Shown one piece after another: positions 8,804 to 41,650 of a stretch of 64,000 nucleotides of DNA. The stretch is from NCBI GenBank assembly GCA_904395885.1, contig CAJFOF010000001.1, positions 1-64,000 of the forward strand. The letters are read 5' to 3'. Position 1 is the stretch's first letter, and each line of letters starts with the position of its first letter. Below the pieces are notes generated by a model. The model worked only from the letters and a program-made list of their open reading frames with translations. It made no database searches and was not told the DNA's origin. Source of the stretch: an uncultured Lachnospiraceae bacterium. GTDB lineage: Bacteria; Bacillota; Clostridia; Lachnospirales; Lachnospiraceae. The translations under genes and the position numbers were made by a program.

Positions 8804-10759
8804 TTATCCCATATAATCACTTTGTAGCGCTTCTGCCAGGTTACATTTCAGGATCTTTTTGCCCCCTACATAATATGCCAGTGCAACAAATCCAAAAATC
8901 GCCGCAATAAAAATTGCGATAGGAACAATCGGAGCCACTGACAAAAACTCCATTGGATTCAGATAGCTTGCCGTTATCATAAACCATACAAACAATACAG
9001 TGACTGGCAGCGTAATCAGAACAGGACGTCCTGCAATGACAAGAGCCTCAATCCGAAAGATTTTCCGCATACCTTCCGGTGTCATACCGATGGACATATA
9101 TCTCGCAAACTCTCTTTTCCGTTGCCGGATAAAACCTAACGTGTTGGAAAAGACATTGGCAATTCCAATCAGAGCAAGTAATGCACACAACGCCCCTATA
9201 ATCAGCTTATAGCCATTTAGCATGGCGTCATTGTCTATTTTTTCCTGAACACGGTTTTCCATCTCAAGTGTCAATTCATTTTCCAGGATATTTGTCAGTT
9301 CCATTTCTATCGTATTCAATTCAGTTAAAGTTCTATCTTTCGTGGCTAGTACGCGAATATATGTGTCTTGCTCTGCATTCCCAATCACTTTTTCGATCTG
9401 TTTCCACGATGAGACCGAAAGGAACTGGACCAACGCATAGTTATCGTATTCTTCTCTTAAAACCGGCGGCTTCTGTGTATAGCCCAAAACAGGGATTGTG
9501 ACTGTAACTGTCGCGTCATCACGATTCTGTAAGATGATGGTGTCCTGTTCCTCAGTTAAAAACGGAACGTATTCTTTATACCTAAAGTTACTGTTTGCGC
9601 TGTCCCAGATACGGTTCAGAATCACACTCCCTGTTCCTGACGGAGAAACGCCGATCTGCTCACAGTATGCAGCAAAGCTGCTGTCATCCATAATGACAAG
9701 AGGGGCCTGGATCGTATAGGTGTCATCGGCAGCGCTGACAGAGGTTCCGGCCAACGCCTCTACCCCTCCCAGATTTTCCACTTCCTTGCTGATGGCCTCC
9801 ATGGGAACAGAACTATAAGCCTCCGCCTTTTGATAAATGATGCTGTCTGTATCATCCAGCCCATGGATTTCATCTTCGTGAGTAAACGCCTCTATCGGGG
9901 TGTCTTTTACGGTTGCCATGACGTCCCAGGCATCCTGGTAGCGTTCAAAATAGGTATGGTTCGTGCTGATTCCTGAAAGAGTAAAGAAGCACAGCATAAA
10001 CGTAAATCCCAGAAAGGAAAGGGTCAGGGACAGCGTAGAAGTTCTTAAGGATTTCTTCTGTGCCTTCAGCGCATTGCCGGCCAATTCCCCTTCTACTCCA
10101 AACAGTCGTGCAAGGATAGGAGACCTTTTCTCCCGTTTTAGCTGTAACTCGCCTGTATTTTTAATGGCCTCCAGCGGGGTCAGCCTGCTTAACTCCAGGG
10201 CTGGCAGCCATGCGGAAATCAACACTGTCAGAGCAGATACCAGAATTGTGACAGCAAATACGAGAGGATGGTAAGAAAATACCGCATCACGCCTGCCTGC
10301 AATGCCATCTGCAAGGACATTTACAATCTGTATGGTTCCGAAAGTCAGCGCAATCCCGATAAAACTTCCGAGCAAAATTGGTATGACACAGAGAACAGCC
10401 GCCTCCTGCAAAAGGCAGGTACGAATTTGTCCCGGCGTTGCTCCTATGCTGGAAAAAATGCCAAACTGATGAATACGGGCATTCATGGACACGGCAAAGG
10501 AGTTATGAATAATCAAAATCAAAGACGCCGATACAAGCAGAAGTACAGTCAAATAAAAGACCATCAACAGAGACGGGCTGGTATCCTGCGGGTTATGGAT
10601 AAAAATGGATTCTATCTCGTAATTCCAAAAATTGTAGAACAGGCTACACAGCAAAGACAGAAACAAAGACGAAATGAACGCGGCAACAAGGACGGACAAG
10701 CTGGAAGCCCGATTCCTTTTTATAAATCCGATGGAATAGTCTTTCCACATATCCTTCAC
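8804..10759 (-). CDS. ABC transporter permease, FtsX/BceB-like
   Basis: 651 residues with the two-module layout of FtsX-type permeases: an N-terminal membrane segment, a cluster of helices (about 60-200), a helix near 235-260, a large extracytoplasmic domain (about 265-520) and three C-terminal helices. The start overlaps the stop of the ATPase gene in a 4-nt junction, so the pair is coupled. Such pairs export or release antimicrobial peptides or lipids from the membrane. No two-component system flanks it, so a BceAB-type resistance role is possible but unsupported. Substrate unknown. Confidence 0.85.
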   Translation of the reverse strand: MKDMWKDYSIGFIKRNRASSLSVLVAAFISSLFLSLLCSLFYNFWNYEIESIFIHNPQDTSPSLLMVFYLTVLLLVSASLILIIHNSFAVSMNARIHQFGIFSSIGATPGQIRTCLLQEAAVLCVIPILLGSFIGIALTFGTIQIVNVLADGIAGRRDAVFSYHPLVFAVTILVSALTVLISAWLPALELSRLTPLEAIKNTGELQLKREKRSPILARLFGVEGELAGNALKAQKKSLRTSTLSLTLSFLGFTFMLCFFTLSGISTNHTYFERYQDAWDVMATVKDTPIEAFTHEDEIHGLDDTDSIIYQKAEAYSSVPMEAISKEVENLGGVEALAGTSVSAADDTYTIQAPLVIMDDSSFAAYCEQIGVSPSGTGSVILNRIWDSANSNFRYKEYVPFLTEEQDTIILQNRDDATVTVTIPVLGYTQKPPVLREEYDNYALVQFLSVSSWKQIEKVIGNAEQDTYIRVLATKDRTLTELNTIEMELTNILENELTLEMENRVQEKIDNDAMLNGYKLIIGALCALLALIGIANVFSNTLGFIRQRKREFARYMSIGMTPEGMRKIFRIEALVIAGRPVLITLPVTVLFVWFMITASYLNPMEFLSVAPIVPIAIFIAAIFGFVALAYYVGGKKILKCNLAEALQSDYMG

Positions 10760-11436
10760 CGACCTTTCTGATCGCTGATGATTTTCCCATCCTCTATGGT
10801 TATCATGCGATCTGCTTCTAAAGCAATCTTTTCGTCATGGGTAATCAGCAGAATGGTCTGGTTCAGGTTGCGATTTGACAATTTCAATAGATCAATGATT
10901 TCTTCTCCGTTTTTTCGATCAAGGTTCCCTGTTGGCTCATCGGCAAGTAAGATGGCCGGACGATAAATCAAAGAGCGGGCGATGGCGGCGCGCTGTTGCT
11001 GCCCGCCCGATAACTGGTTGGGAAGAGAATCCAGCTTATCTTCAATGCCTAGTGAACGGACAATCTGGTCAAAATATTCCTGGTTGGGTTTCTGTTTATC
11101 CAACGTGAGCGGCATAAGAATATTTTTTCGGACGGTAAGCGTTGGAATCAAATTATAAAACTGATAGATCAGCCCCACTTTTCTACGTCTGAAAATCGCC
11201 GCCTGTGTTCGGTTCATCCTGGATATGTCTGTTCCTTCTATCACTACTTTTCCCTCTGTGGGCTTATCCACGCTGCCCAGAATATGCAGCAAGGTAGATT
11301 TCCCGGATCCGGACGCACCCACAATTGCCACAAATTCCCCTTTTTGAACAGAGAGGTCAATATGATCCAGCGCCACGACCTGATTGTTTCCAGATCCATA
11401 TACCTTTCGCACATTTTCACATCTTAGTATTTCCAC
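10756..11436 (-). CDS. ABC transporter ATP-binding protein (MacB/BceA type)
   Basis: 226 residues from a GTG start at 11436, chosen because AAAGGGG lies about 7 nt upstream; a longer frame to 11475 lacks this. Walker A GASGSGKST, Q-loop YQFYNLIPTL, signature LSGGQQQR and Walker B ILLADEPTGNLD are intact, followed by the H-loop in LLITHD. It energises the adjoining FtsX-like permease. A long terminator-like inverted repeat lies just upstream and could be the end of the ddh transcript or a leader attenuator. Confidence 0.9.
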   Translation of the reverse strand: MEILRCENVRKVYGSGNNQVVALDHIDLSVQKGEFVAIVGASGSGKSTLLHILGSVDKPTEGKVVIEGTDISRMNRTQAAIFRRRKVGLIYQFYNLIPTLTVRKNILMPLTLDKQKPNQEYFDQIVRSLGIEDKLDSLPNQLSGGQQQRAAIARSLIYRPAILLADEPTGNLDRKNGEEIIDLLKLSNRNLNQTILLITHDEKIALEADRMITIEDGKIISDQKGR

Positions 11437-11477
11437 ATCGCTTTCCCCTTTCTGTACTAACGAAAGAAGCAACAAAG

Positions 11478-12644: not shown

Positions 12645-15056
12645 TTATTTCATCACGATATTGATGATCTTTCCGGGAACATAAATCTCTTTTACAATAT
12701 TTCCGGTGAGCTTGTCTGCAATCACAGCCTTTCCGGCTTCCAGGGCCGCAGCCTTATCTAAATCCGCCGGAATGCTGACCACGCCTCTGGTCTTGCCATT
12801 GATCTGGACAGCAATCTCAATCTCATCGTCTTTCATCGCCTCTTCATCGCACTCGGGCCACTGGCTATGGAATACGCTGTCGGTTCCTCCAAGCTGCTGC
12901 CACAGCTCTTCTGCAATATGCGGAGCAAAGGGAGACAGAAGCACCGTAAAGGTACGCAGAGTCTCTTTATCGATTCCGCCTTCCTTCTTGGCCAGCTCGA
13001 TCAGCTTGTTGTTGTACTCCATAAAACCGGAGACAACGGTATTCAGACTGAACTGTGAGAATCTCTGTTCAATGTCAAAGACCAGCTTATGGCGAAGTTT
13101 CACCATCTCTTTTGTCTCTTTCACATCTTTATCTTTGTTATCCATCACCAGGTTCCAGTAACGGTTCAGGAAGCGGGCAACGCCCTCAATGCCTCTGTCA
13201 TCCCACTCGGCATCCAGTTCCGGCGGTCCCACAAACAATTCATAGAGTCTCAAGGCGTCACAGCCGTAATCGCGAACGAGATCGTCAGGAGAAACTACAT
13301 TTCCTTTGGATTTACTCATCTTGATTCCGTTCTTGCCGTTAATCATACCCTGATTGAACAGTTTGGTAAAGGGCTCATCGAAATCCACAACGCCGATATC
13401 GTACAAGAATTTGGTATAGAATCTGGAATATAACAGGTGAAGCACAGCATGCTCTACGCCGCCGATGTACATATCCACCGGCAGGTACTTGTGAGCCTTC
13501 TCCTTGGACACCAGCTCTTTATCATTTTTATTGTCCACATAGCGCAGGAAATACCAGGAAGATCCCGCCCACTGAGGCATGGTGTTGGTCTCTCTCTTTG
13601 CCGGACCTCCGCAGCAGGGGCAGGTGGTATTGACCCACTCGTCGATGGCAGCCAGAGGGGACTCGCCAGTTCCTGTGGGCTGATAGCTCTCTACCTCCGG
13701 CAGTTTCAGTGGAAGCTGATCCTCCGGCACCGGTACATTTCCGCACTTAGGACAGTGGATGATCGGAATCGGTTCTCCCCAGTAACGCTGACGGGAGAAC
13801 ACCCAGTCTCTCAGCTTATAGTTGACGGTCTTCTTGCCGATTCCCATTTTCTCAATCATTGCAGGAGCCTCTTTCTTTAATACTGCAGACTCCATACCGT
13901 TCCACTCTCCGGAATTGATCATGGTGCCGGAAGCCTCTGTATACGCCTCCGTCATATTCTCAATTTCCTTGCCGTCCTTGGCGATGACCTGGACAATCGG
14001 GATTCCAAACTTTTTGGCAAATTCAAAGTCTCTGTCATCATGGGCCGGAACACACATGATTGCTCCGGTTCCGTAATCAGCCAGAACATAATCGGACAGC
14101 CAGATGGGAATCTTCTTTCCATTTAACGGATTGACCGCATAGGAGCCGGTAAACACACCAGTCTTTTCCTTTGCCTGCATCCTGTCTACATTGGACTTCA
14201 TGGAAGAATCAAAAATATATTTTTCTACAGCCTCCCTGGTCTCATCGTTGGCCAGGCTCTTTGCCAGCTTATGCTCCGGCGAGAGGACCATAAAGGTAGC
14301 GCCGTGGAGAGTATCCGGCCTCGTTGTATAAACGGTAATCTTCTCCTCTCTACCGTCTACCGGGAATTCAACCTCTGCGCCGTAAGACTTGCCGATCCAG
14401 TCTGTCTGCATCTTTTTTACCTTCTCCGGCCAGTCCAGCTTGTCCAGATCGTTGAGCAGCCTGTCTGCGTAGGCGGTGATCTTTAACATCCACTGGCGAA
14501 GATTCTTCTTGGTAACCGGGGAGCCGCAGCGTTCGCAGCAGCCATTTACCACCTCTTCATTGGCCAGACCGGTCTTACAGGAAGGACACCAGTTGATGGG
14601 GAACTCCTTCTCATAGGCCAGACCCTTCTTGAACATCTGTACAAAGATCCACTGGGTCCACTTATAGAATTCCGGATCTGTGGTATTGATCTCCATGTCC
14701 CAGTCGTAAATTGCAGCGATCTCTTTTAACTGTTTCTTGATATTTGCCACATTCTCAGCAGTGGACTTTGCCGGATGGACGCCCATCTTGATCGCATAGT
14801 TCTCAGCCGGAAGGCCGAAAGCGTCCCAGCCCATGGGGTGGATCACATAATGGCCTTTCAGAAGCTGGTAGCGGCTCCAGGCATCGGAAATCACATAGCC
14901 TCTCCAGTGGCCTACATGGAGGCCGCTTCCCGACGGATAGGGAAACATATCCAGGCAATAGTATTTCGGCTTTTTGCCGTCGTTGACATTGATGGGATTC
15001 TTCTCCCAGTTTTCGCGCCATTTCTTCTCAATGGCGGTATGGTTGTACTGTGCCAT
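12645..15056 (-). CDS. leuS: leucyl-tRNA synthetase
   Basis: 803 residues, typical length. Charges tRNA(Leu). The class I signatures are present: HVGH (HIGH equivalent) at residues 47-50 within PYPSGSGLHVGHWRGY, KMSKSKGNVVSP in the C-terminal third, a zinc-like CPSCKTG...CCERCG segment, and an editing domain with TTRPDTLHGATF. The start follows AAGGAGTGTAAGGA. Expression is controlled by an upstream leucine T-box. The stop lies 86 nt before ddh. Confidence 0.97.
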   Translation of the reverse strand: MAQYNHTAIEKKWRENWEKNPINVNDGKKPKYYCLDMFPYPSGSGLHVGHWRGYVISDAWSRYQLLKGHYVIHPMGWDAFGLPAENYAIKMGVHPAKSTAENVANIKKQLKEIAAIYDWDMEINTTDPEFYKWTQWIFVQMFKKGLAYEKEFPINWCPSCKTGLANEEVVNGCCERCGSPVTKKNLRQWMLKITAYADRLLNDLDKLDWPEKVKKMQTDWIGKSYGAEVEFPVDGREEKITVYTTRPDTLHGATFMVLSPEHKLAKSLANDETREAVEKYIFDSSMKSNVDRMQAKEKTGVFTGSYAVNPLNGKKIPIWLSDYVLADYGTGAIMCVPAHDDRDFEFAKKFGIPIVQVIAKDGKEIENMTEAYTEASGTMINSGEWNGMESAVLKKEAPAMIEKMGIGKKTVNYKLRDWVFSRQRYWGEPIPIIHCPKCGNVPVPEDQLPLKLPEVESYQPTGTGESPLAAIDEWVNTTCPCCGGPAKRETNTMPQWAGSSWYFLRYVDNKNDKELVSKEKAHKYLPVDMYIGGVEHAVLHLLYSRFYTKFLYDIGVVDFDEPFTKLFNQGMINGKNGIKMSKSKGNVVSPDDLVRDYGCDALRLYELFVGPPELDAEWDDRGIEGVARFLNRYWNLVMDNKDKDVKETKEMVKLRHKLVFDIEQRFSQFSLNTVVSGFMEYNNKLIELAKKEGGIDKETLRTFTVLLSPFAPHIAEELWQQLGGTDSVFHSQWPECDEEAMKDDEIEIAVQINGKTRGVVSIPADLDKAAALEAGKAVIADKLTGNIVKEIYVPGKIINIVMK

Positions 15057-15099: not shown

Positions 15100-15396
15100 A
15101 CAAAAAACCTGCGTCTCCGGCTCTCGCCATAGAGACGCAGGGATTATCTGCGCGGTACCACTCTATTTCATACATCTGTATGCTCTCTGCTGGATTCCTT
15201 TGAATCCGACTGCTGATAACGGGGCAGTTCCGGCAGCGCCTATTCAATCTGATAAAAACGCTAAACGTTCAAACCAGAGTTTCAGCCCTGCTACTCAGGG
15301 GCCAGTTCAGAACCTGCCTGCCTCCGTCTCGCACCCGCCGACGGCTCTCTGCCCGCCGCACTGCTCTTACTATTCCCCGTCACAGTATTTACGCTG
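15100..15396 (-). promoter_or_regulatory. T-box leader of leuS
   Basis: The minus-strand leader has a Stem I with AGAGAGCCG and GGTGCGAGACGG, a specifier region GAACTGGCCCCTGAGTAGC, a T-box sequence AGAGTGGTACCGCG (15164-15151) and a terminator CCTGCGTCTC/GAGACGCAGG (15141-15108) followed by TTTTTT. The proposed specifier codon is CTG (Leu) at 15305-15303, from its place before the conserved CCTGAGT segment. Uncharged tRNA(Leu) would stabilise the antiterminator and allow leuS transcription. Confidence 0.92.
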
Positions 15397-15402
15397 GTTT
15401 TA

Positions 15403-15431
15403 AATTTAGCATAATTAGCAAAATGTGTCAA
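15403..15431 (-). promoter_or_regulatory. promoter of the leuS T-box transcript
   Basis: TTGACA (15426-15431), 17-nt spacer, TAAATT (15403-15408). Half of the -35 hexamer lies inside the left 27-bp direct repeat of the island. Confidence 0.75.
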
Positions 15432-15455
15432 CCCGGTTTTTCATTTCACCGTGAT
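15429..15455 (+). repeat. 27-bp direct repeat, left copy (attL/attR-like)
   Basis: Identical over 27 nt to 21494-21520 and in the same orientation, 6,065 bp apart. Read on the minus strand, this copy ends a short frame with ITVK-stop, the C-terminus of the nicotinamidase, but has no gene body attached. The bases just outside the match differ, apart from a displaced CATGCC. Confidence 0.9.
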
Positions 15456-15477
15456 AAGCGGAGCCATGCCTTTTTCT

Positions 15478-16920
15478 TTATCTGCTTTTTATGGTATTCA
15501 GAGCCGCATCTTGTTTGCCTTTTGCCGACTCCAAATCTTCAAAATCTCCCAAGTTGGTCAGTTGGATCCCCGAAGCGTCAACTTTAGCTTCCGGATTTTC
15601 CTGCTGGCCCCGGATGGTGGCGGGGATCCTCCCATCCAGCTGTTCGCGTATACTCTGGGCCCGGAGCAGGCAGACCTGTTCCAGCGTATCCACCGCCAGC
15701 CGATGGTCTTCAAAGGAGCAAAACGCAGTGGGATCTTTTTGGACGTAGGGGGCGATCAACTTTTCCGTCTGCCAGAGAATGGTTTCAAACCGCCCGGTTT
15801 CAAAATATTCCGAAACCAGCTCGTCAAAGTATGCGTGGTACCTGGCAAAATATTCATTATGTTTCATTAAGTTGTGGTAAAGCGGCCGGTTCAGCATAAC
15901 CTCACCTTCCGCCGGAGTGTTAATGGGGTAGTTGATAAGGATATTGGGATCTTTTATGGGGTCGGTCATTCCCAGGGCATAGGTGCCGAATGCAAGGTTG
16001 TAATCCCAGGGCAGAATGCCGAGAATCCCGTTTTCTTCATACAAGAAATAGTTGTGCCCGGTATGGCCCAGATAACTGTCCCAGTTCATCACAAAGACCT
16101 GCACAGTGAAATACCGCAGCACCTGGTCCACATTGACAGCAGTTTCCAGATTTTCACCGGTGGACAGCGTTTTCAGCGCCTCAATTATCCGCTCCTGATC
16201 GGCACGGGATGTCTGAAATTTAGCGTTTTCAAAGATACCGGGATAGCTGTCCGGGTGATCATCGATATATTGCAGAGCTACATCAGCATTTTCCGCATTC
16301 AGGGAACGGTAATCCGGCTTGTACAGCTTCCCGTAATTATTTCCGAAATTCCTGCGGGCAAAAGATTCCTCCGGCTCCTCTACCGCCAGAAACAACCCCC
16401 AGGCCTCTCCGTTGACTGTCACCCAGACATAGCTGCAGAGGGGCGCAGGCACCCCCATAAACGCCATCATATCGTAGACCATATAGGTTTTCAGATAACT
16501 GTTGTCCTGAAAAGAAGCGTCCAGGGAAAATTTGTCCAGCCCATAATAATTTCCGCCATCCAGGAACTGGTCGAATTCCAGCTTGAGGCTGTAGCGGGAA
16601 AGCCCATATTCCTCCGTCAGCCGCAAAGAATTGTTGCCCTTTGCCCGCAGCCCAATATTATGAAACTCTTCCCCGTCAATTTCGACAGTGCAGGCCACAT
16701 ACTCTTCTCTCTCAGCATTCTCAATAAAAGCGCCCCAGTCCTCAATTTGAATATCAATGGCATGCACCCGACTGCTGTCAAACAGACGGGTCTCATAACC
16801 CGGGTTGGCGCTGGCTTTGAGAATCCCCAACCGCTCGCCATACATCAGCAGCAGGGTGATGAGAACTGCCGAAACCGCCGCGCCAATGCAAATCCAGTCG
16901 ATATACTTATGCTTCACCAT
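15478..16920 (-). CDS. CotH-type kinase-like protein, membrane anchored
   Basis: 480 residues from the ATG 4 nt after the DUF4956 stop; an in-frame GTG at 16941 overlapping that gene is an alternative. One N-terminal membrane segment (about residues 10-27), then an extracytoplasmic CotH domain. CotH proteins have an atypical protein-kinase fold and phosphorylate spore-coat proteins in Bacillus. The expected late motifs are visible: MNWDSYLGHTGHNYFLY, with a catalytic-type Asp, and LPWDYNLAFG with the metal-binding Asp. Last gene of the candidate SigI-driven operon. Target unknown; the acidic repeat lipoprotein of the operon is a candidate. Confidence 0.85.
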   Translation of the reverse strand: MVKHKYIDWICIGAAVSAVLITLLLMYGERLGILKASANPGYETRLFDSSRVHAIDIQIEDWGAFIENAEREEYVACTVEIDGEEFHNIGLRAKGNNSLRLTEEYGLSRYSLKLEFDQFLDGGNYYGLDKFSLDASFQDNSYLKTYMVYDMMAFMGVPAPLCSYVWVTVNGEAWGLFLAVEEPEESFARRNFGNNYGKLYKPDYRSLNAENADVALQYIDDHPDSYPGIFENAKFQTSRADQERIIEALKTLSTGENLETAVNVDQVLRYFTVQVFVMNWDSYLGHTGHNYFLYEENGILGILPWDYNLAFGTYALGMTDPIKDPNILINYPINTPAEGEVMLNRPLYHNLMKHNEYFARYHAYFDELVSEYFETGRFETILWQTEKLIAPYVQKDPTAFCSFEDHRLAVDTLEQVCLLRAQSIREQLDGRIPATIRGQQENPEAKVDASGIQLTNLGDFEDLESAKGKQDAALNTIKSR

Positions 16921-16924
16921 CACT

Positions 16925-17596
16925 TTATCCCATATAGTCACCGTTGTAGGAAACCAGCACTACTCGAGACACACCTGGCATAGCCTCCAGCTCGTTGACA
17001 AAGACGCTGCTGTCCTCTTTGAGACGGACTTCATAGTTAAGTTCCATGCTGCCGTTTTCCACACTTTTGCTTTTGAGGTTCAGCCGCCTGACCTGGGAGC
17101 GGATAAAAATTCGTGCCTGTTCCTCAATTTCACTGTTTTCGCAGTGAACCACCAGGATATAGGGTGAATCCATAGTTTTCTTTCGGGAGAAAGCCAAAAG
17201 AACTGTCCCAATGAAGATGCTGCCGAATACTGCCAGCGGAATCAGCCCCGCCGCCAACACAATTCCCACTGCAATAGCCCAGAACAAAAAAGCAATATCC
17301 ATGGGTTCCTTGATGGCCGTGCGGAATCGGACGATAGACAGAGCGCCCACCATCCCGAGGGACAGGACAACATTGCTCATCACTGTCATGATCAGCATGG
17401 TCGTAACAAGGGATAATGCAATCAGCGTCACACCAAAGCTTGACGAGTACATCACGCCGCTGTAGCTTTTCTTATAAATGAAAAAGATAAATAATCCCAG
17501 CAGGAAAGCCAGAACCAGCGCAATTATCATGTCCAATATAGAAATGCTGGCGATATTCTCCAGAAAGCTGGATTTGAAAATATTCTGAAAGGTCAT
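16925..17596 (-). CDS. DUF4956 membrane protein
   Basis: 223 residues. About four membrane helices fill residues 20-135, with the conserved cytoplasmic signature LGMVGALSIVRFRTAIKEP between them, and a soluble C-terminal domain of about 85 residues resembling an ACT/MgtC-like regulatory fold. DUF4956 proteins are commonly encoded next to VTC-domain polymerases; a role in export or regulation of the polymer is inferred, not shown. It lies 24 nt after the VTC gene and 4 nt before cotH, in one operon. Confidence 0.85.
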   Translation of the reverse strand: MTFQNIFKSSFLENIASISILDMIIALVLAFLLGLFIFFIYKKSYSGVMYSSSFGVTLIALSLVTTMLIMTVMSNVVLSLGMVGALSIVRFRTAIKEPMDIAFLFWAIAVGIVLAAGLIPLAVFGSIFIGTVLLAFSRKKTMDSPYILVVHCENSEIEEQARIFIRSQVRRLNLKSKSVENGSMELNYEVRLKEDSSVFVNELEAMPGVSRVVLVSYNGDYMG

Positions 17597-17620
17597 TGCA
17601 GCCCTTCCTCCTCTATTTGT

Positions 17621-18319
17621 TCAATCAAACCGTCGGCACAGAGCGTATTTGGAACAGGCCGCCGCCTGCCTCCCGGCCACCTGTACCGCCATGCGAACAA
17701 GATCCGGCAAAAACGCATCGTATTTGATTTCCAGCACCGTTCCAAACTCCATTGCACGCAGATAAAAAATTTCCGAATTCAAAAAATCCACACTCCCAAG
17801 GCCTGTGCGGATGTCCCGATCCAGGGTGATCCGCACGTTGCCGGGCGCATAGAGAAAGGCCTCTCTGTCGTAACGGACGATGGTCTTCGGCCGCAGCCCT
17901 CTCCCTTTTAATTTGCTGTAAAGCTCTATGAAAAGCGGTTCACCCGAGTCCAGCAGAAATTCATAGCTGCCAGAAAGCAGCTTCTCTGCCTGTTCCCGGG
18001 ACATCCGTGTGCTGCGCTTGCCGCACATGCCGTTTACCTTGTACTTCTTTTCCAGCCGGATAAAAGAAAGATCCGCCCCATAATACCGCAGACGAAATTT
18101 TTCCCGTCGATTTACTCCGTCGATTTTCTCCCGCAGGGCACTGTCATAAGGCGTATCAAAATACAGGCTGGTCACTCGGTACGTACCACACGGACCGGCA
18201 TTTTTGTCATGTATAAACAGCTTGCGAAGCCTCTGGGAAAGCACCAGATCTTCCTGAGGGTTGATCTGGTGCTTCAGCTCATGCCGAAGGGAAACTGCTT
18301 TGATCGGCTCAATCGTCAT
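17621..18319 (-). CDS. VTC-domain polyphosphate polymerase
   Basis: 232 residues. VTC domains make inorganic polyphosphate from ATP inside a basic tunnel. Tunnel features are visible: RHELKH near the start, SLYFDTP, REKFRLRYYG, LEKKYKVNG, TIVRYDREAF, ITLDRDIR and VLEIKYD near the C-terminus. There is no SPX domain, as usual in bacteria. The ATG at 18319 lies 11 nt inside the end of the lipoprotein gene and follows GGAG by 9 nt; longer in-frame starts would read through the acidic repeat DNA and are unlikely. Coupling to the lipoprotein and DUF4956 genes indicates one complex or pathway. Confidence 0.85.
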   Translation of the reverse strand: MTIEPIKAVSLRHELKHQINPQEDLVLSQRLRKLFIHDKNAGPCGTYRVTSLYFDTPYDSALREKIDGVNRREKFRLRYYGADLSFIRLEKKYKVNGMCGKRSTRMSREQAEKLLSGSYEFLLDSGEPLFIELYSKLKGRGLRPKTIVRYDREAFLYAPGNVRITLDRDIRTGLGSVDFLNSEIFYLRAMEFGTVLEIKYDAFLPDLVRMAVQVAGRQAAACSKYALCRRFD

Positions 18320-19367
18320 AGTCGGTATCTCCGTCATCATCGTCGTCATCGTAATCGGTATCGTCATCATAGTCCGTGTCATCGTAATCGGTCACGCCGT
18401 CGTTGTTCGGGCCGTAGTCCGTGTCATTGTAATCGGTCACGCCGTCGTTGTTCGGACCGTAGTCCGTGTCATCGTAGTCCGTCACGCCGTCGTTGTTCGG
18501 GCCGTAGTCCGTGTCATTGTAATCGGTCACGCCGTCGTTGTTCGGGCCGTAGTCCGTGTCATTGTAATCGGTCACGCCGTCGTTGTTCGGGCCGTAGTCC
18601 GTGTCATCGTAGTCCGTGATGCCGCCGGAGGCTTGGTCTCCAACCTGCGTGCCAACAGTCCTGTGTTCTGCCTTCACAACCTTCCCGGTCACAGCATGGA
18701 TATCGTAATCATACTCAGCGCCGTCTACGGTGAATTCCAGTTCAAAAACCGGGGTTCCGTCATCGTGATCGAATTCCTTGTCGTCGAACACTGCGCCCTC
18801 GACTTCGACATTCGCCTGGGTAAGCGCAATTTCCTGTGCCTTCTCCAGAGTGATGTAGGGGGATGGCTTTCCGTTTTTGGCATAAGCCGGGTCGTAGTCA
18901 TCGTGGTCAATGGTTACGATGTCTGAAGAAAGACTTAACTCCTTTACGGCTTCCTGAGTGCTGGCGCTCATATTCGCCAGAAAATCGCTGCTGGGAAGCA
19001 CTGAGCCGGGTTCCAACTGCAGGATGATGTTCTTTTTGCTGCCGTCAATATCCTCCACGAAAAAACCGGCTTCATGGATTTCGACAATCAGATCCTTTAA
19101 AACCTCATCACAGCTTTTTCCAATATAGTCCGGATAGGCCTCCACAATGCCTTTTCCGTCATCGTTCCGACCAGTCAGAGCGGTAACCGTGCCATTCCTG
19201 CTGTATTCGATCTGGATTTCCGGATTAACACTCAAGGTAAGGGTACCGGTTTCCTTCAGCGCTGTTCCTTCCTGCGCCGATGCCCCGCATCCGGCCAGAA
19301 GGACTGCCGAAGCGACAGCCAGGGAAGAGACCGCTGCAAAAAGTGTTCTTCTCAATTTCATATTCAT
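18309..19367 (-). CDS. lipoprotein with RsgI-like domain, PepSY domain and acidic tandem repeats
   Basis: 352 residues. Start at 19367 follows GAGAGGAGCA. A lipobox (LLAGC, Cys27) marks a lipoprotein. Residues about 40-140 (LTLSVNPEIQIEYSRNG and onward) match the extracytoplasmic domain of the neighbouring RsgI. Residues about 190-260 form a PepSY domain (ITLEKAQEIALTQA). The C-terminus holds five perfect-length 15-residue repeats TDYxDTDYGPNNDGV followed by an almost pure Asp/Tyr tail. The tail could bind Ca2+ or be phosphorylated on Thr/Tyr; both are inference. It has its own candidate SigI promoter and starts the VTC-DUF4956-cotH operon. Confidence 0.85.
   Translation of the reverse strand: MNMKLRRTLFAAVSSLAVASAVLLAGCGASAQEGTALKETGTLTLSVNPEIQIEYSRNGTVTALTGRNDDGKGIVEAYPDYIGKSCDEVLKDLIVEIHEAGFFVEDIDGSKKNIILQLEPGSVLPSSDFLANMSASTQEAVKELSLSSDIVTIDHDDYDPAYAKNGKPSPYITLEKAQEIALTQANVEVEGAVFDDKEFDHDDGTPVFELEFTVDGAEYDYDIHAVTGKVVKAEHRTVGTQVGDQASGGITDYDDTDYGPNNDGVTDYNDTDYGPNNDGVTDYNDTDYGPNNDGVTDYDDTDYGPNNDGVTDYNDTDYGPNNDGVTDYDDTDYDDDTDYDDDDDDGDTDYDD
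18372..18617. repeat. 45-bp tandem repeat, five copies plus a partial sixth
   Basis: Five consecutive 45-nt units (18372-18596) and a 21-nt partial sixth encode the acidic repeats of the lipoprotein. Copies differ at few positions, mostly the Asn/Asp codon, implying recent expansion or homogenisation. Copy number is likely to vary between strains. Confidence 0.95.
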
Positions 19368-19421
19368 TGCTCCTCTCAAATTATAGTTGAATTGGCTTTT
19401 GTTTTGCTTACACTTATAGAT

Positions 19422-19449
19422 TACGGGAGCGAGCATTGAAAACCGGGGT
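19422..19449 (-). promoter_or_regulatory. candidate SigI-type promoter of the lipoprotein-VTC-DUF4956-cotH operon
   Basis: On the minus strand ACCCC (19449-19445), 19-nt spacer, CGTA (19425-19422), followed by ATCTATA. The same elements with the same spacing precede sigI. SigI-family promoters are known to have ACCC-type -35 and CGAA/CGTA-type -10 boxes. It lies in the gap after the rsgI stop, about 55 nt before the lipoprotein start. Confidence 0.65.
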
Positions 19450-19472
19450 AAGATGGAAAATTTTTTGGGATT

Positions 19473-20447
19473 TTAATCCTCGTCATCGCCGTAATCTGAA
19501 TCATCATTGTTACTGCCATCGTCGTCATCGTAGCTGCTGTCGCCGTTCTCCTCTAAATCATCATCGCTGTCGTTGCCTGGAGCATAATCGGTATTTCCGT
19601 CCGTATAATCGGTGACGCCGTCGTTGCCGGAGCCATAGTCCGTATCCACATACGCCGGTGTACTGCTGGCCGGCGGCGTATGGTCAGTGACGCCGTCGTT
19701 GCTCGTTCCGTAATCCGTATTGTCATAATCAGTGGTAGCGGAAGGCGTCGGAGGTACAATCTCCGGCCGGGATGATTCGGACGGCGGAGGCGATGTGGAT
19801 GCTGGTTGAGAAGAAGTTGGCTGAAATGAGTCCGGAGAGGAACTGTTCTCCGGATTTTCTTGCCCTTGCCCGTCTTTATGTTTAACAATTTCGATCGTGA
19901 TGGTAATCCGGCCGTCCAAATGCTCCGTTACCTTGGTACGAAGCTCTGTTCCATACTCTTGGAACAGAGCTTCGTCCGGGGAATCAATGGAGAACGAAAC
20001 CTTGCCGCCCTCGGAAAGAAAGCCCATCTCAATTGCCCTGTCAATCAGCTCGTCTGCGACGATTACCTTGTCTTTCCCCTTGCCATCGTAGCCTTCCAGC
20101 AGAATTTCTCCATCTTCATTTGCCCCTGAAAGTTTCACCACTATTCCCCGCCGATTCAGATCCATCTGCACTTCCGGGTTGATGGTCAGGTATATGGATG
20201 AATAAGGCTGCAGATAATTCTGGTAATGACTAATGCCAAAGAACAGCAGGAAACAGGCGGCAGCTGCCGCAATGCTGCTGATCCAACGCATAGTATGCCG
20301 TTGCCTTTTCGGTGTTTCCTTCATCAGCACCGGGGCATACACAGTCTGCCCCATTTCGTATCGAAGATTGGCTGCTTTTAGGAAACGCCCTTCTTCATCC
20401 AGAAGAACCGCGTAGCTGGGGTGGCATTCCATAACCAGGTATCTCAT
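19473..20447 (-). CDS. rsgI: RsgI-family anti-sigma factor with acidic ectodomain
   Basis: 324 residues. The N-terminal ~45 residues (YLVMECHPSYAVLLDEEGRFLKAANL) are the cytoplasmic RsgI_N sigma-binding domain; one membrane helix spans about 54-72; an extracytoplasmic RsgI-type domain (YLTINPEVQMDLNRRG onward) covers about 83-190. Then comes a Ser/Pro-rich linker and a tail with DNTDYGTSNDGVTDH, VDTDYGSGNDGVTDY and long Asp/Glu/Asn runs, matching the repeats of the lipoprotein. The start overlaps the sigI stop by 1 nt. It presumably holds SigI at the membrane and releases it on an envelope signal sensed by the tail. Confidence 0.85.
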   Translation of the reverse strand: MRYLVMECHPSYAVLLDEEGRFLKAANLRYEMGQTVYAPVLMKETPKRQRHTMRWISSIAAAAACFLLFFGISHYQNYLQPYSSIYLTINPEVQMDLNRRGIVVKLSGANEDGEILLEGYDGKGKDKVIVADELIDRAIEMGFLSEGGKVSFSIDSPDEALFQEYGTELRTKVTEHLDGRITITIEIVKHKDGQGQENPENSSSPDSFQPTSSQPASTSPPPSESSRPEIVPPTPSATTDYDNTDYGTSNDGVTDHTPPASSTPAYVDTDYGSGNDGVTDYTDGNTDYAPGNDSDDDLEENGDSSYDDDDGSNNDDSDYGDDED

Positions 20448-21169
20448 TATACTGCCACTCCTTTCATCACCTGTTTCAAATGCCCGCGGATGATTTCATA
20501 CCCATTGGTATAAATCAGAAGCAGGGCCACCATATATTTGCGGTGCCGTTCCAATGTTTTACGCTCCACACCACTGCCGGCTGCCAGCGGCCCAATTGGC
20601 AGCTTCTTTGTTCTCAAGAGATCATTCAGCAGTTCCGGGGTTGCCCCGGCATACTGCAGGGCCTTACGGCAGGCGTCCAGCGTGCGCTGCTGTCTGGGAC
20701 AATTGTCTGCTACATCGCTGAGGCTAACGCCAAATTCCTGCATTTGCCGCGTCAGCTCCTCGATTTCCGAGCGGGTCGCATCTCGTGCCGCCATTTCCTC
20801 GTGCGGCTCCCTTTTATCCGCCAGCGTCTCGCCCAGAGTCTTATCGTCTTCCCCTGTTGGCGCGTCCAACGAGACGACGCGGCTGTGCCGCTGTTCCATG
20901 CGGCTGTAGTCGATCAGTCGGCTTCGAATCAACAGGGCGGCGTATTTCAGGAAGGCACCACGAGTGCGGGAATACCCGTTGATTGCCTCGTGAAAAGCGA
21001 TCATGGCAATGCTCAGTTCATCGTCATGCCCTTCAATAGGGGGGCGCTTTAAAAATTTTGCCGTTTCCGTTTTGATAAAGGGAATGTATGTACTGATCAG
21101 CCGATCCGCCGCCTGTACATCTTCCTTTGCCGCATAGACCTGCTGAACGATTTTATGCTCATCATTCAT
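20447..21169 (-). CDS. sigI: RNA polymerase sigma factor, SigI family
   Basis: 240 residues. The region-2-like core includes FIKTETAKFLKR, DDELSIAMIAFHEAINGY and AFLKYAALLIRSRLIDYSR; the C-terminal part has RKTLERHRKYMVALLLIYTNGY, the conserved SigI DNA-binding end. SigI responds to heat or polysaccharide signals in other Firmicutes and is controlled by RsgI. The GGGAGGG site lies 11 nt before the ATG. Two matching candidate promoters in the island suggest autoregulation and control of the downstream operon. Confidence 0.88.
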   Translation of the reverse strand: MNDEHKIVQQVYAAKEDVQAADRLISTYIPFIKTETAKFLKRPPIEGHDDELSIAMIAFHEAINGYSRTRGAFLKYAALLIRSRLIDYSRMEQRHSRVVSLDAPTGEDDKTLGETLADKREPHEEMAARDATRSEIEELTRQMQEFGVSLSDVADNCPRQQRTLDACRKALQYAGATPELLNDLLRTKKLPIGPLAAGSGVERKTLERHRKYMVALLLIYTNGYEIIRGHLKQVMKGVAV

Positions 21170-21417
21170 GCAGCAGAAATCCCTCCCAGTATAATAATGG
21201 CGCAGTCAAGAATGACTGCTGAGTTAACAGTTCCCTTCTGTATATAGAATACGATCCCTGTTTTCTAAAAACGGGGTCGATATATCATAATTTTCAAATC
21301 GTATGCATACAGAAATCCAGTGTAATAATACAGCCCTTTCTATTCAGCCACAATCATGAACAAGTTAAATTTGTGTAAATTGAATGTAAAATTGAAAACA
21401 CCCGGTTTATGTACAAA
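21170..21417 (-). other. sigI upstream region
   Basis: No gene seen. It holds the candidate SigI promoter (21250-21277), an imperfect palindrome overlapping it (CCCGTTTTTAGAAAACAGGG), and a 5'-UTR hairpin GCAGTCA/TGACTGC at about 21202-21219 before the ribosome site. Confidence 0.6.
21250..21277 (-). promoter_or_regulatory. candidate SigI-type promoter of sigI-rsgI
   Basis: On the minus strand ACCCC (21277-21273), 19-nt spacer, CGTA (21253-21250), followed by TTCTATA. It matches the element at 19422-19449 in both boxes, spacing and the G-TTTT and TCTATA flanks. Confidence 0.65.
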
Positions 21418-21470
21418 AAAAGAAACAATCTAAGGGCTTTTTTAATTCTCTGCCTTAGCTTGTTTCTTTT
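21415..21470 (-). terminator. terminator after the nicotinamidase gene
   Basis: An 18-bp stem with one mismatch (21453-21470 with 21418-21435) around a 17-nt loop, followed on the minus strand by TTTTTT. It lies inside the right end of the island, 36 nt beyond the gene stop. Confidence 0.75.
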
Positions 21471-21493
21471 CAAAGTGTTAGAAATAAATGCAA

Positions 21494-21520
21494 CAACCCG
21501 GTTTTTCATTTCACCGTGAT
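21494..21520 (+). repeat. 27-bp direct repeat, right copy, inside the 3' end of the nicotinamidase gene
   Basis: Identical to 15429-15455. It covers the last five codons including the stop and 12 nt beyond, so this copy keeps the gene intact. Confidence 0.9.
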
Positions 21521-22018
21521 CTGACATGCCTCCATCGCTCTCAGCGCCGTCTCATGGCTGTCAGATGTGACCCCCGCACAGCAGGATGAATCTACGCTGA
21601 TCTCCGCCTCCGGCAGGTATGCCTGCAGCAAAAAGGCATTGGCGATGACGCAGATGTCTGTGCACAGTCCTACCAGCTCGATCTTTTCGTAGCCCCTGGA
21701 AGCCGCGTAGGATCCCAGTTCCGTACTCCCAAAGGTCGTTTTCTCAAAATACCGGCCTTTTACATCACCCAGCTCGTCGCACAGTTCCCAGCCGTCAGTC
21801 TCTGCGATACAGTGGGGTACGGGAAGCCGCTTTCCCTCGCGCGTAGACAGGTAATCCTCCCCGTGGGTATCCAGGGTAAAGGCCACATCCCATCCGTCAG
21901 CCTGCCTGGAAAGGATTTTTTCCTTCACCGCAGGCACGATCGCTCTGGCTTCCTCTGTCCCCAGACTCCCATCAATAAAATCTTTCTGCATATCTACTAC
22001 TACCAGCAATCTTTTCAT
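21506..22018 (-). CDS. nicotinamidase-like cysteine hydrolase
   Basis: 170 residues from the ATG at 22018, which follows GGAGG by 5 nt. The isochorismatase fold shows the catalytic Asp9 (VVVDMQKDF), Lys93 (FEKTTFG) and Cys123 (GLCTDICV), plus metal ligands Asp50, His52 and His69, the pattern of nicotinamidases that convert nicotinamide to nicotinate for NAD salvage. Its 3' end supplies the right direct repeat of the island. A related amide substrate is possible. It follows the alcohol dehydrogenase gene by about 90 nt. Confidence 0.85.
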   Translation of the reverse strand: MKRLLVVVDMQKDFIDGSLGTEEARAIVPAVKEKILSRQADGWDVAFTLDTHGEDYLSTREGKRLPVPHCIAETDGWELCDELGDVKGRYFEKTTFGSTELGSYAASRGYEKIELVGLCTDICVIANAFLLQAYLPEAEISVDSSCCAGVTSDSHETALRAMEACQITVK

Positions 22019-22109
22019 ATCCGCCTCCATCTGCCGCTGCCTGCGGCTCTTTTCATCACGGGCGCAACTGCCCTGCTTTCACTTATATCAGCTTTCCCGA
22101 AGGGACATC

Positions 22110-39063: not shown

Positions 39064-39927
39064 TCATGCCGTGCAGGCAGCATTTCCCCATTGGAGGAAC
39101 GGACTAACCTTTTCTCGGTTAGATTTTAAAAATGAAATATGATATATGACATTTAGCTCAGGATCGTTCATTGGGACAAGTTTTCGGTGTGTTCCGTCAT
39201 TTCGTAAATCCAGCGATAATGTTGAAATAGTAGTCAAAAAATTAGTCGTTCGAATCATATGCTGTGTAATATTAAAATTATTTTTAATTAGAGTGATGGG
39301 CAATTTGTTTTCCAAAATAATTTTTTCTATTTGTATAAGGAAGTAACCGCCAATCTGCGGATAGAGCAAGGGCTGTGCAGGTATTTCACACATGGAGATA
39401 CTCTCACATTCTGATAGCTTATTCTCTATAGGAACTGAAAGATACACTCGATCCGGCAGGAAAGAAACACTTTGGATATGAGTACCTTTTACGGGTGTTG
39501 GTGTAATAACCAAATCATAAACTCTTTCTGTAAGCAGTCTCTGGGCCTCATTTCCCACATATAATTCATCTTTTATTTTAATCTCTGGATATGCCATAGA
39601 AAAGCGCGGAACACAAAACCAGCGAACACCAGGATCGCAAAACGCAATGGAAAGTGTTAAATGTTGCTGTGCAGCACTCAGAAGGTCGGCTTTCATTTGT
39701 TCTACATTCCGTAGAATCGTATTAGCATGAACCAAAGCAATCTCGCCGACCATATTTAAATGAATCCGGTTTGGGCTTCTGTCAAATAACTCTACATTCA
39801 ATTCTTCCTCAAACTTTTTAAGCATAGCGCTCATGGCCGGCTGAGATATATGTAGTATTTCAGCGGCTTTCGTAAGTGATCCTGTTTCTGCTATAAGTTT
39901 GAAATATTGAAGCTGCATAATATCCAT
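39064..39927 (-). CDS. LysR-family transcriptional regulator
   Basis: 287 residues. N-terminal winged helix (MDIMQLQYFKLIAETGSLTKAAEILHISQPAMSAMLKKFEEEL) and a C-terminal effector domain (about 90-285). It is divergent from an aldo/keto reductase gene across a 211-nt gap with palindromes, so it probably controls that gene and itself. The effector is unknown. AT-rich codon use in its C-terminal half looks lower in GC than most of its neighbours, a hint of separate origin. Confidence 0.88.
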   Translation of the reverse strand: MDIMQLQYFKLIAETGSLTKAAEILHISQPAMSAMLKKFEEELNVELFDRSPNRIHLNMVGEIALVHANTILRNVEQMKADLLSAAQQHLTLSIAFCDPGVRWFCVPRFSMAYPEIKIKDELYVGNEAQRLLTERVYDLVITPTPVKGTHIQSVSFLPDRVYLSVPIENKLSECESISMCEIPAQPLLYPQIGGYFLIQIEKIILENKLPITLIKNNFNITQHMIRTTNFLTTISTLSLDLRNDGTHRKLVPMNDPELNVIYHISFLKSNREKVSPFLQWGNAACTA

Positions 39928-39962
39928 CAGTTATCCCTCACATTCTTAGCATAATTATTTAT

Positions 39963-39975
39963 TTATGCACCATAA
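39963..39975. promoter_or_regulatory. LysR-box-like palindrome
   Basis: TTATG-N3-CATAA with T-N11-A spacing, 36 nt upstream of the LysR start, in the divergent gap. Confidence 0.45.
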
Positions 39976-40007
39976 AAATTATGTAGTGTACATCTCTCAA
40001 ATCATCT

Positions 40008-40027
40008 TTTACAATAAGTATTGTAAA
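40008..40027. promoter_or_regulatory. 20-bp perfect palindrome in the LysR/AKR gap
   Basis: TTTACAATA-AG-TATTGTAAA, 9-bp arms. Candidate operator for the LysR regulator or another repressor. Confidence 0.5.
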
Positions 40028-40120
40028 GAGGTTCTCATATTCACTCACATTATAGCATAATCAAATATTTTCTGTAAGCAGAACAATGTTTATGAGCAAA
40101 ACCTCGTATCAAATCTATGA

Positions 40121-40990
<870 letters not shown>

Positions 40991-41303: not shown

Positions 41304-41309
41304 AAAAAG

Positions 41310-41650
41310 TGGACCTGAGGGGAATCGAACCCCTGTCCGAAAATCAATTCCCTGTTCTTCTACTATCATAGTCTGCTATTTATCATTCCCTCTGCCATCC
41401 GAAAACAGACATCCTGATGGGTTCAGTAGCTTCATAATTACGCCCGCAGGTTCAAAGCTTTGCCTGTGTCGTTTCCCGCATCGTCGATGCCAGATTCTCT
41501 ATGTGCGGGTGCACAGAGGCTGACAGTCGCTGCAATTAAGCAGCGTATGCTAAATTATCTTCAGCGTTTATATTTAGGTTTGCCATTTAACCCATTGCAT
41601 GGGGATAGCTTCACCAGCTTCATGATCCCCGTCGAAACCAGTACAAGCCC
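41310..41650 (-). ncRNA. ssrA: transfer-messenger RNA (tmRNA)
   Basis: 341 nt. The tRNA-like ends pair: 5' GGGCTTG (41650-41644) with 3' CAGGTCC, then discriminator A; CCA is not encoded and must be added. The T arm is CAGGGGTTCGATTCCCCT and the 5' part has TACTGGTTTCGACGGGG. The tag frame reads ANLNINAEDNLAYAA then TAA, a 15-residue degradation tag with the expected hydrophobic end. It rescues stalled ribosomes and marks products for ClpXP, whose genes are in this window. Confidence 0.96.

Follow-up and report, generated by a model that had tools for sequence, protein, structure and literature searches.

A predicted sigma-I regulon between exact 27-bp direct repeats at a hydrolase-leuS junction in a Lachnospiraceae genome

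How did a block of six genes, headed by the sigma factor gene sigI, come to lie between a hydrolase gene and leuS, bounded on each side by the same 27 bp that include the last codons of the hydrolase? The block is on contig CAJFOF010000001.1 of an uncultured Lachnospiraceae bacterium (assembly GCA_904395885.1), in the 64,000 nucleotides analysed here (positions 1 to 64,000 of the forward strand, called the window). An earlier sequence-only reading had likened the repeats to the attachment sites (attL/attR) of an element integrated at a gene 3' end. We favour another account, which seems to us probable if far from secure: a horizontally acquired, self-contained sigma-I regulon, inserted by a recombinase-independent event with an unusually long target duplication. 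The features concerned, by window position, are:

21506..22030, minus strand: isochorismatase-family hydrolase (Pfam), upstream flank
21494..21520, minus strand: 27-bp repeat, upstream copy (hydrolase tail, spacer, TTG)
15456..21493, minus strand: inserted segment, 6038 bp, absent from the uninterrupted junction of congener G002
21418..21470, minus strand: predicted terminator hairpin, at the end of the insert nearer the hydrolase (inverted repeat; fold -18.2 kcal/mol, z -3.3)
21364..21390, minus strand: Pho-like box TTTACA-N5-TTTACA-N5-TTAAC (against what we take to be the consensus)
21244..21276, minus strand: predicted sigma-I promoter 1, before sigI
20447..21169, minus strand: sigI (NCBIfam SigI models, best E 6e-53, below their equivalog cut-offs)
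19473..20447, minus strand: rsgI, anti-sigma factor with Asp/Tyr-rich tail (RsgI_M E 3e-19; one hydrophobic segment)
19416..19448, minus strand: predicted sigma-I promoter 2, before rsgI2
18309..19367, minus strand: rsgI2, RsgI_M plus PepSY, carrying TDYGPNNDGV repeats of 15 residues (start codon picked for its place downstream of promoter 2)
17621..18319, minus strand: VTC-domain protein (PF09359 E 6e-33; start codon inferred)
16925..17596, minus strand: DUF4956 membrane protein, MgtC-like (PF16316 E 1e-11)
15478..16941, minus strand: cotH, CotH-kinase family (PF08757 E 2e-59; PDB 5jd9 E 7.6e-14)
15429..15455, minus strand: 27-bp repeat, downstream copy, running into the leuS promoter
15403..15431, minus strand: predicted leuS promoter TTGACA-N17-TAAATT
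15128..15392, minus strand: leuS T-box leader (Rfam RF00230, 114 bits)
12645..15056, minus strand: leuS, downstream flank

Exact repeats in the same orientation had been claimed from the sequence, and the comparison bears this out: ATCACGGTGAAATGAAAAACCGGGTTG (minus strand) occurs exactly twice, at 15429-15455 and 21494-21520, with 27/27 identity, and has no other match at up to three mismatches in the window or the whole 2.95-Mb assembly; no match at that tolerance arose in 100 shuffles. Its first 15 nt close the hydrolase open reading frame, stop codon included; then come a 9-nt spacer and TTG, with which the predicted leuS -35 box begins (TTGACA-N17-TAAATT, ahead of the T-box leader). Both window copies are hybrids of hydrolase tail and leuS -35 region. 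Past the 27 bp the similarity of the two copies is not significant, being equalled in 27.5% and 8.5% of 400 shuffles. Between the copies lie six minus-strand genes: sigI, rsgI, the RsgI/PepSY gene rsgI2, and those for VTC, DUF4956 and CotH. The name nicotinamidase given earlier to the upstream gene was not upheld, as Pfam gives an isochorismatase-family hydrolase only and the NCBIfam nicotinamidase model scores 28.8 bits (E 9.3e-7) against a cut-off of 174.

We compared the source assembly (G000) with three congeners (G001, G002 and G003). The block is absent from G002: the leuS promoter and T-box come straight after the hydrolase gene (91% identical), and the 27 bp are present once, in diverged form. 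When the window flanks are joined at the repeat they align with this junction straight through the 27 bp, with five substitutions and one indel inside. Removal of the block thus does restore the hydrolase directly before the leuS T-box promoter, and the empty site with a single repeat, proposed earlier as the check on insertion, exists in one of the three congeners, its copy diverged. The gap between hydrolase and leuS holds about 9.7 kb of two-component and ABC-transport genes in G003 (L008 8915-18064) and a single FAD/Rieske oxidoreductase gene in G001 (L009 11274-12830), and neither has hydrolase-tail sequence before the leuS -35 box. The hybrid is therefore confined to two of the four congeners, G000 with two copies and G002 with one, and in a scan of named genomes hydrolase-leuS adjacency was seen, among 80 loci, only in G002's own record (L076). 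Both window copies being hybrids, the simplest course of events is entry of the block into a junction that was already compact, with the 27 bp left on both sides; on this alignment such entry with duplication of the 27 bp is likely. The two copies in G000 are identical while G002 differs at six places, so that the insertion is likely younger than the G000/G002 split (rough arithmetic gives e^-6 for zero differences if equally old).

Related clusters were sought across the family. CotH matches at E <= 1e-40 were found in 45 of 299 family genomes, G000 included, and DUF4956 matches at E <= 1e-70 in 76 of 397. Eight loci were fetched from CotH-positive genomes and three more after the DUF4956 search, and seven of these eleven have all six genes in the same order (L040, L041, L043, L045, L046, L234 and L235); as for the rest, VTC and DUF4956 were undetected in L042, sigI-rsgI is inverted in L044, L047 has no sigma part and L236 runs into a contig end. 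Neighbourhoods differ, with only G031 and G349, of one genus, sharing neighbours among ten loci compared. That other genera have the genes in this order too, amid other neighbours and with predicted promoters of the set's own, agrees with the earlier description of one functional block. The closest cluster found is that of G371, in another genus (72-87% identical by protein). At E <= 1e-5 there is no CotH match in G002 or G003 and only a distant one (46-50%), elsewhere, in G001, and CotH identity to the window follows neither leuS identity (Spearman 0.11, n = 8, p = 0.79) nor mgsA identity (Spearman -0.68, n = 6, p = 0.14). Horizontal acquisition is the simplest explanation of this pattern, and from these comparisons it is likely. 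As to possible carriers, CotH had no match on phages and no stretch matching its peptide words in IMG/VR, and on plasmids it matched three records, all at <60% identity.

The block appears to bring its own control. A SigI protein (by models scoring below their equivalog cut-offs) is encoded beside an RsgI-type membrane protein, and CCCCGNTTTT-N13-CGTANTCTAT or a near variant precedes sigI in seven of eight sigI-bearing clusters (not L044), and it precedes rsgI2 in six of them (not L043 or L044); the only site of L044 was found at two mismatches, and both sites are present in L234 and L235. At up to two mismatches the 2.95 Mb of G000 have two sites, both inside the block. A survey of 34 chosen genomes (ten cluster-bearing, G001-G003 and 21 others) gave 21 sites in the ten cluster-bearing genomes, 18 of them inside the cluster, none in G001-G003 and three in the 21 others; the reversed pattern gave five across all 34. 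Known sigma-I promoters, as described in PMC6056542, combine a -35 region rich in C with an A-tract and with CGAA or CGTA; the window motif has the C-run and CGTA, with a T-tract where the A-tract is expected. The block is like the clostridial SigI-RsgI systems of that description in having sigI beside an RsgI-type gene and a C-rich -35 plus CGWA -10 before sigI; it departs from them in the T-tract, in a motif found in this genome nowhere outside the cluster, in a second RsgI/PepSY protein with Asp/Tyr repeats, and in its predicted targets, VTC, DUF4956 and CotH.

Before sigI there is also a Pho-like direct repeat, its units spaced at 11 bp. In seven of eight clusters its score exceeds those of at least 97% of 300 shuffles. 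By the hexamer consensus that we take to be that of Pho boxes, it is the only perfect match in G000, which has one further match at one mismatch, and the region upstream of pstS has a weaker box. WalR-type boxes share the spacing of Pho boxes, and the regulator here could therefore be PhoP- or WalR-type. SigI would start transcription from both motif copies, that of its own gene and that of rsgI2-VTC-DUF4956-cotH; RsgI is predicted to hold SigI, and the Pho-like box would let a PhoP- or WalR-type regulator act on sigI as well. If so, core RNA polymerase and that regulator are all that a new host would have to supply for the cluster to function as soon as it arrives.

As to the mode of entry, we propose that the cluster was acquired from another lineage and inserted, independently of a recombinase, into the compact hydrolase-leuS junction, and that the target was duplicated over 27 bp in the process, either when a staggered break was repaired or when a template switch went back by 27 nt. 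We infer a duplication made by the insertion, and not an att pair, because the target is unconserved, the block has no recombinase and nine other clusters have no comparable flanking repeats; the earlier reading had allowed for another kind of duplication, and this option fits best. Transposon hallmarks are lacking, with no transposase among the six genes and no inverted repeat pairing the insert ends. We found no account in the open-licence literature of recombinase-free insertion with a duplication of such length. Insertion with target duplication is already known by another route: in Escherichia coli, as described in PMC3240628, the integration of conjugated DNA was frequently accompanied by duplications of 109-950 bp, which are attributed to a single crossover involving circular DNA. 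There, as here, incoming DNA lies between two copies of a target stretch, but the E. coli case involves long homology of circles and here we see 27 bp and no other homology.

Several observations weigh against insertion of an acquired regulon in this way. On this contig G000 differs from G002 by genes at two further places, neither with repeats of at least 10 bp, so long duplications are not the rule here, and to our knowledge 27 bp is long for transposase duplications. No foreign GC signal is found, the block having 50% against 48-49%. On the side of the predicted control, G068 has the cluster and no motif at up to two mismatches, the motif was derived from these clusters, so that only its absence elsewhere is a test, L043 fails the shuffle test for the Pho-like box, and the reversed Pho pattern has one match in G000. 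The evidence comes from one insertion event, four congeners and a draft assembly (94 contigs, 89% complete) without reads. Finally, two genes on the same contig lie outside the window: one for a Phage_integrase (E 1.3e-15; L188 12018-13343), some 55 kb away from the block, and one for a serine resolvase (E 9.8e-31; L188 18915-19577), some 61 kb away from it.

The two repeat-less differences have contents of their own. One (window 8804-11475) comprises FtsX-type permease and ABC ATPase genes, missing from G002 there and with no flanking repeats of at least 10 bp. The other (39064-40990) comprises LysR-type regulator and aldo/keto reductase genes directly beyond the 3' end of the transfer-messenger RNA (tmRNA) gene (41307-41650), and tmRNA ends are classic integration sites; it too is missing from G002, and it has no att-like repeats of at least 10 bp.

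The integrase and resolvase genes speak for the alternative that survives best, one that we hold to be unlikely though not lightly dismissed: the repeats would be attL and attR of a decayed or non-autonomous integrative element whose integrase has been lost or acts in trans, and the integrase on the same contig may act in trans on the block. The position at a gene 3' end, the exact repeats and the single-copy empty site all agree with it, and to this extent the earlier attL/attR proposal stands; it is the identity of the repeats as att sites that the other comparisons weaken. The block indeed has no integrase, as had been noted, with no recombinase motif in the window and none by Pfam among the six genes. 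No third copy of the 27-mer within three mismatches exists in the assembly, and hence no resident element, that with the integrase or resolvase included, is marked as using this att. A tyrosine recombinase needs identity between attP and target before integration, and the 27 bp consist of a hydrolase tail and spacer that differ in all three congeners, so that a pre-existing identical attP is not expected; as a possible attP the 27-mer had no exact match in IMG/VR. Recombinase motifs were present in three of 114 fetched hydrolase loci (partly overlapping, 2-20 kb each), none adjoining the hydrolase and the nearest downstream one about 3.3 kb from it (L114). Nor are there comparable flanking repeats at nine other clusters, a comparison that has only ~470 bp downstream for L040 and excludes L047 (no sigI) and L236 (contig end): the best is 40 bp at 85% in L044 (E 5e-4, AT-rich), one copy lying upstream, some 1.3 kb off the cluster edge, and the other downstream, 25 nt past cotH; the next is 19 bp at 89% in L234. 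The longest exact flanking repeat at eight other cluster loci, a set overlapping the nine, is 13 bp.

The L044 repeat, when re-examined, came to only 28 bp at 75% and was set aside as probably due to chance. A small serine resolvase gene (L044 11156-11584) lies beside it, just after cotH.

Genomic islands and decayed integrative elements of the cis-mobilisable (CIME) type at gene 3' ends are what we take to be the proper comparison. As in these, the cargo in the window is enclosed by exact direct repeats that take in the 3' end of the target gene; a relative has the site empty, and the cargo encodes no integrase. The window is unlike them in that no related integrase-bearing element was found at the site, the target is unconserved even within the genus and other copies of this cargo sit elsewhere without such repeats.

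Much less credible is an older insertion followed by loss of the block from G002 through deletion between the repeats, although such a deletion leaves one copy and, in the Haloquadratum comparison as described in PMC3119063, deletions accounted for 10 of 11 polarised repeat-bounded indels. The identity of the window copies, with G002 different at six places (the e^-6 above), argues for a young insertion; moreover, G003 and G001 have neither block nor hybrid junction, and the original insertion would still be required. Slighter still is the chance that the junctions are artefacts, made by assembly or strain mixing in a draft of metagenome type. The 94 contigs and 89% completeness would fit this, as would the k127-style contig name on a sister record and the fact that 27 is a k-mer size in some assemblers, but a false join needs the 27-mer at both cluster ends in a real molecule, which is the feature itself, and a 99% identical CotH is found on another contig (P0001; CotH was compared, not the junctions). 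Homologous transfer from a strain with the same arrangement was dropped, as it only shifts the question.

What the cluster would deliver can be judged from its proteins. CotH has one N-terminal hydrophobic segment. DUF4956 has four, matches MgtC/SapB at E 1.7e-8, below cut-off, and has a C-terminal fold match to 2lqj, the only part used of a model that is modest overall (predicted local distance difference test, pLDDT, 76; predicted template modelling score, pTM, 0.59). For VTC a single-sequence search gave no PDB relative. Tails rich in TDYGPNNDGVTDYND or variants occur in 10/10 sigI clusters examined and are absent from the sigma-less L047. We predict that the cluster supplies a polyphosphate polymerase (VTC), a membrane protein like MgtC and a CotH kinase anchored at the surface, next to repeats rich in Asp and Tyr.

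The 15-residue Asp/Tyr repeat (window 18309-18630 and relatives) is nearly the same across genera, in RsgI-type tails that are predicted to be secreted.

Parts of this gene set have been described elsewhere. CotH, polyphosphate polymerase and DUF4956 families stand side by side among the accessory genes of Gram-positive pel clusters described in PMC7112168; the block differs from these in lacking pel genes (its six genes include none and it is flanked by hydrolase and leuS, the rest of the genome not having been searched for pel) and in being led by sigI-rsgI. The NELoc-2 locus of Clostridium perfringens, in the description of PMC2879425, groups at one chromosomal locus a SigI gene and, after it, genes for a hypothetical protein, VTC and CotH, and differs in its other neighbours, a duplicated VTC and a resolvase inside; it is set apart by description, not by sequence. 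For a sigI-led VTC/DUF4956/cotH cluster treated as a regulon we found no account in the open-licence literature.

A bolder version, to which we give little credence, joins all of this: a portable, self-contained sigma-I regulon would move among Lachnospiraceae genera, recombinase-free, through an undescribed kind of insertion with long (27-bp) duplication, and its products would act in sequence, VTC making polyphosphate, the MgtC-like DUF4956 protein taking it across the membrane and CotH drawing on it at the surface to phosphorylate the Asp/Tyr repeats of the RsgI proteins.

The integrase-free entry of whole gene clusters into bacterial chromosomes is little understood, and it helps to have polarised cases that are exact to the base and come with an empty site. 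Here the sigma factor, the anti-sigma factor and both predicted promoters travel together, so that control would accompany the genes, which suggests why the cluster can settle in many places. The CotH/VTC/DUF4956 set, whose role is unclear, becomes a testable regulon with a possible link to phosphate.

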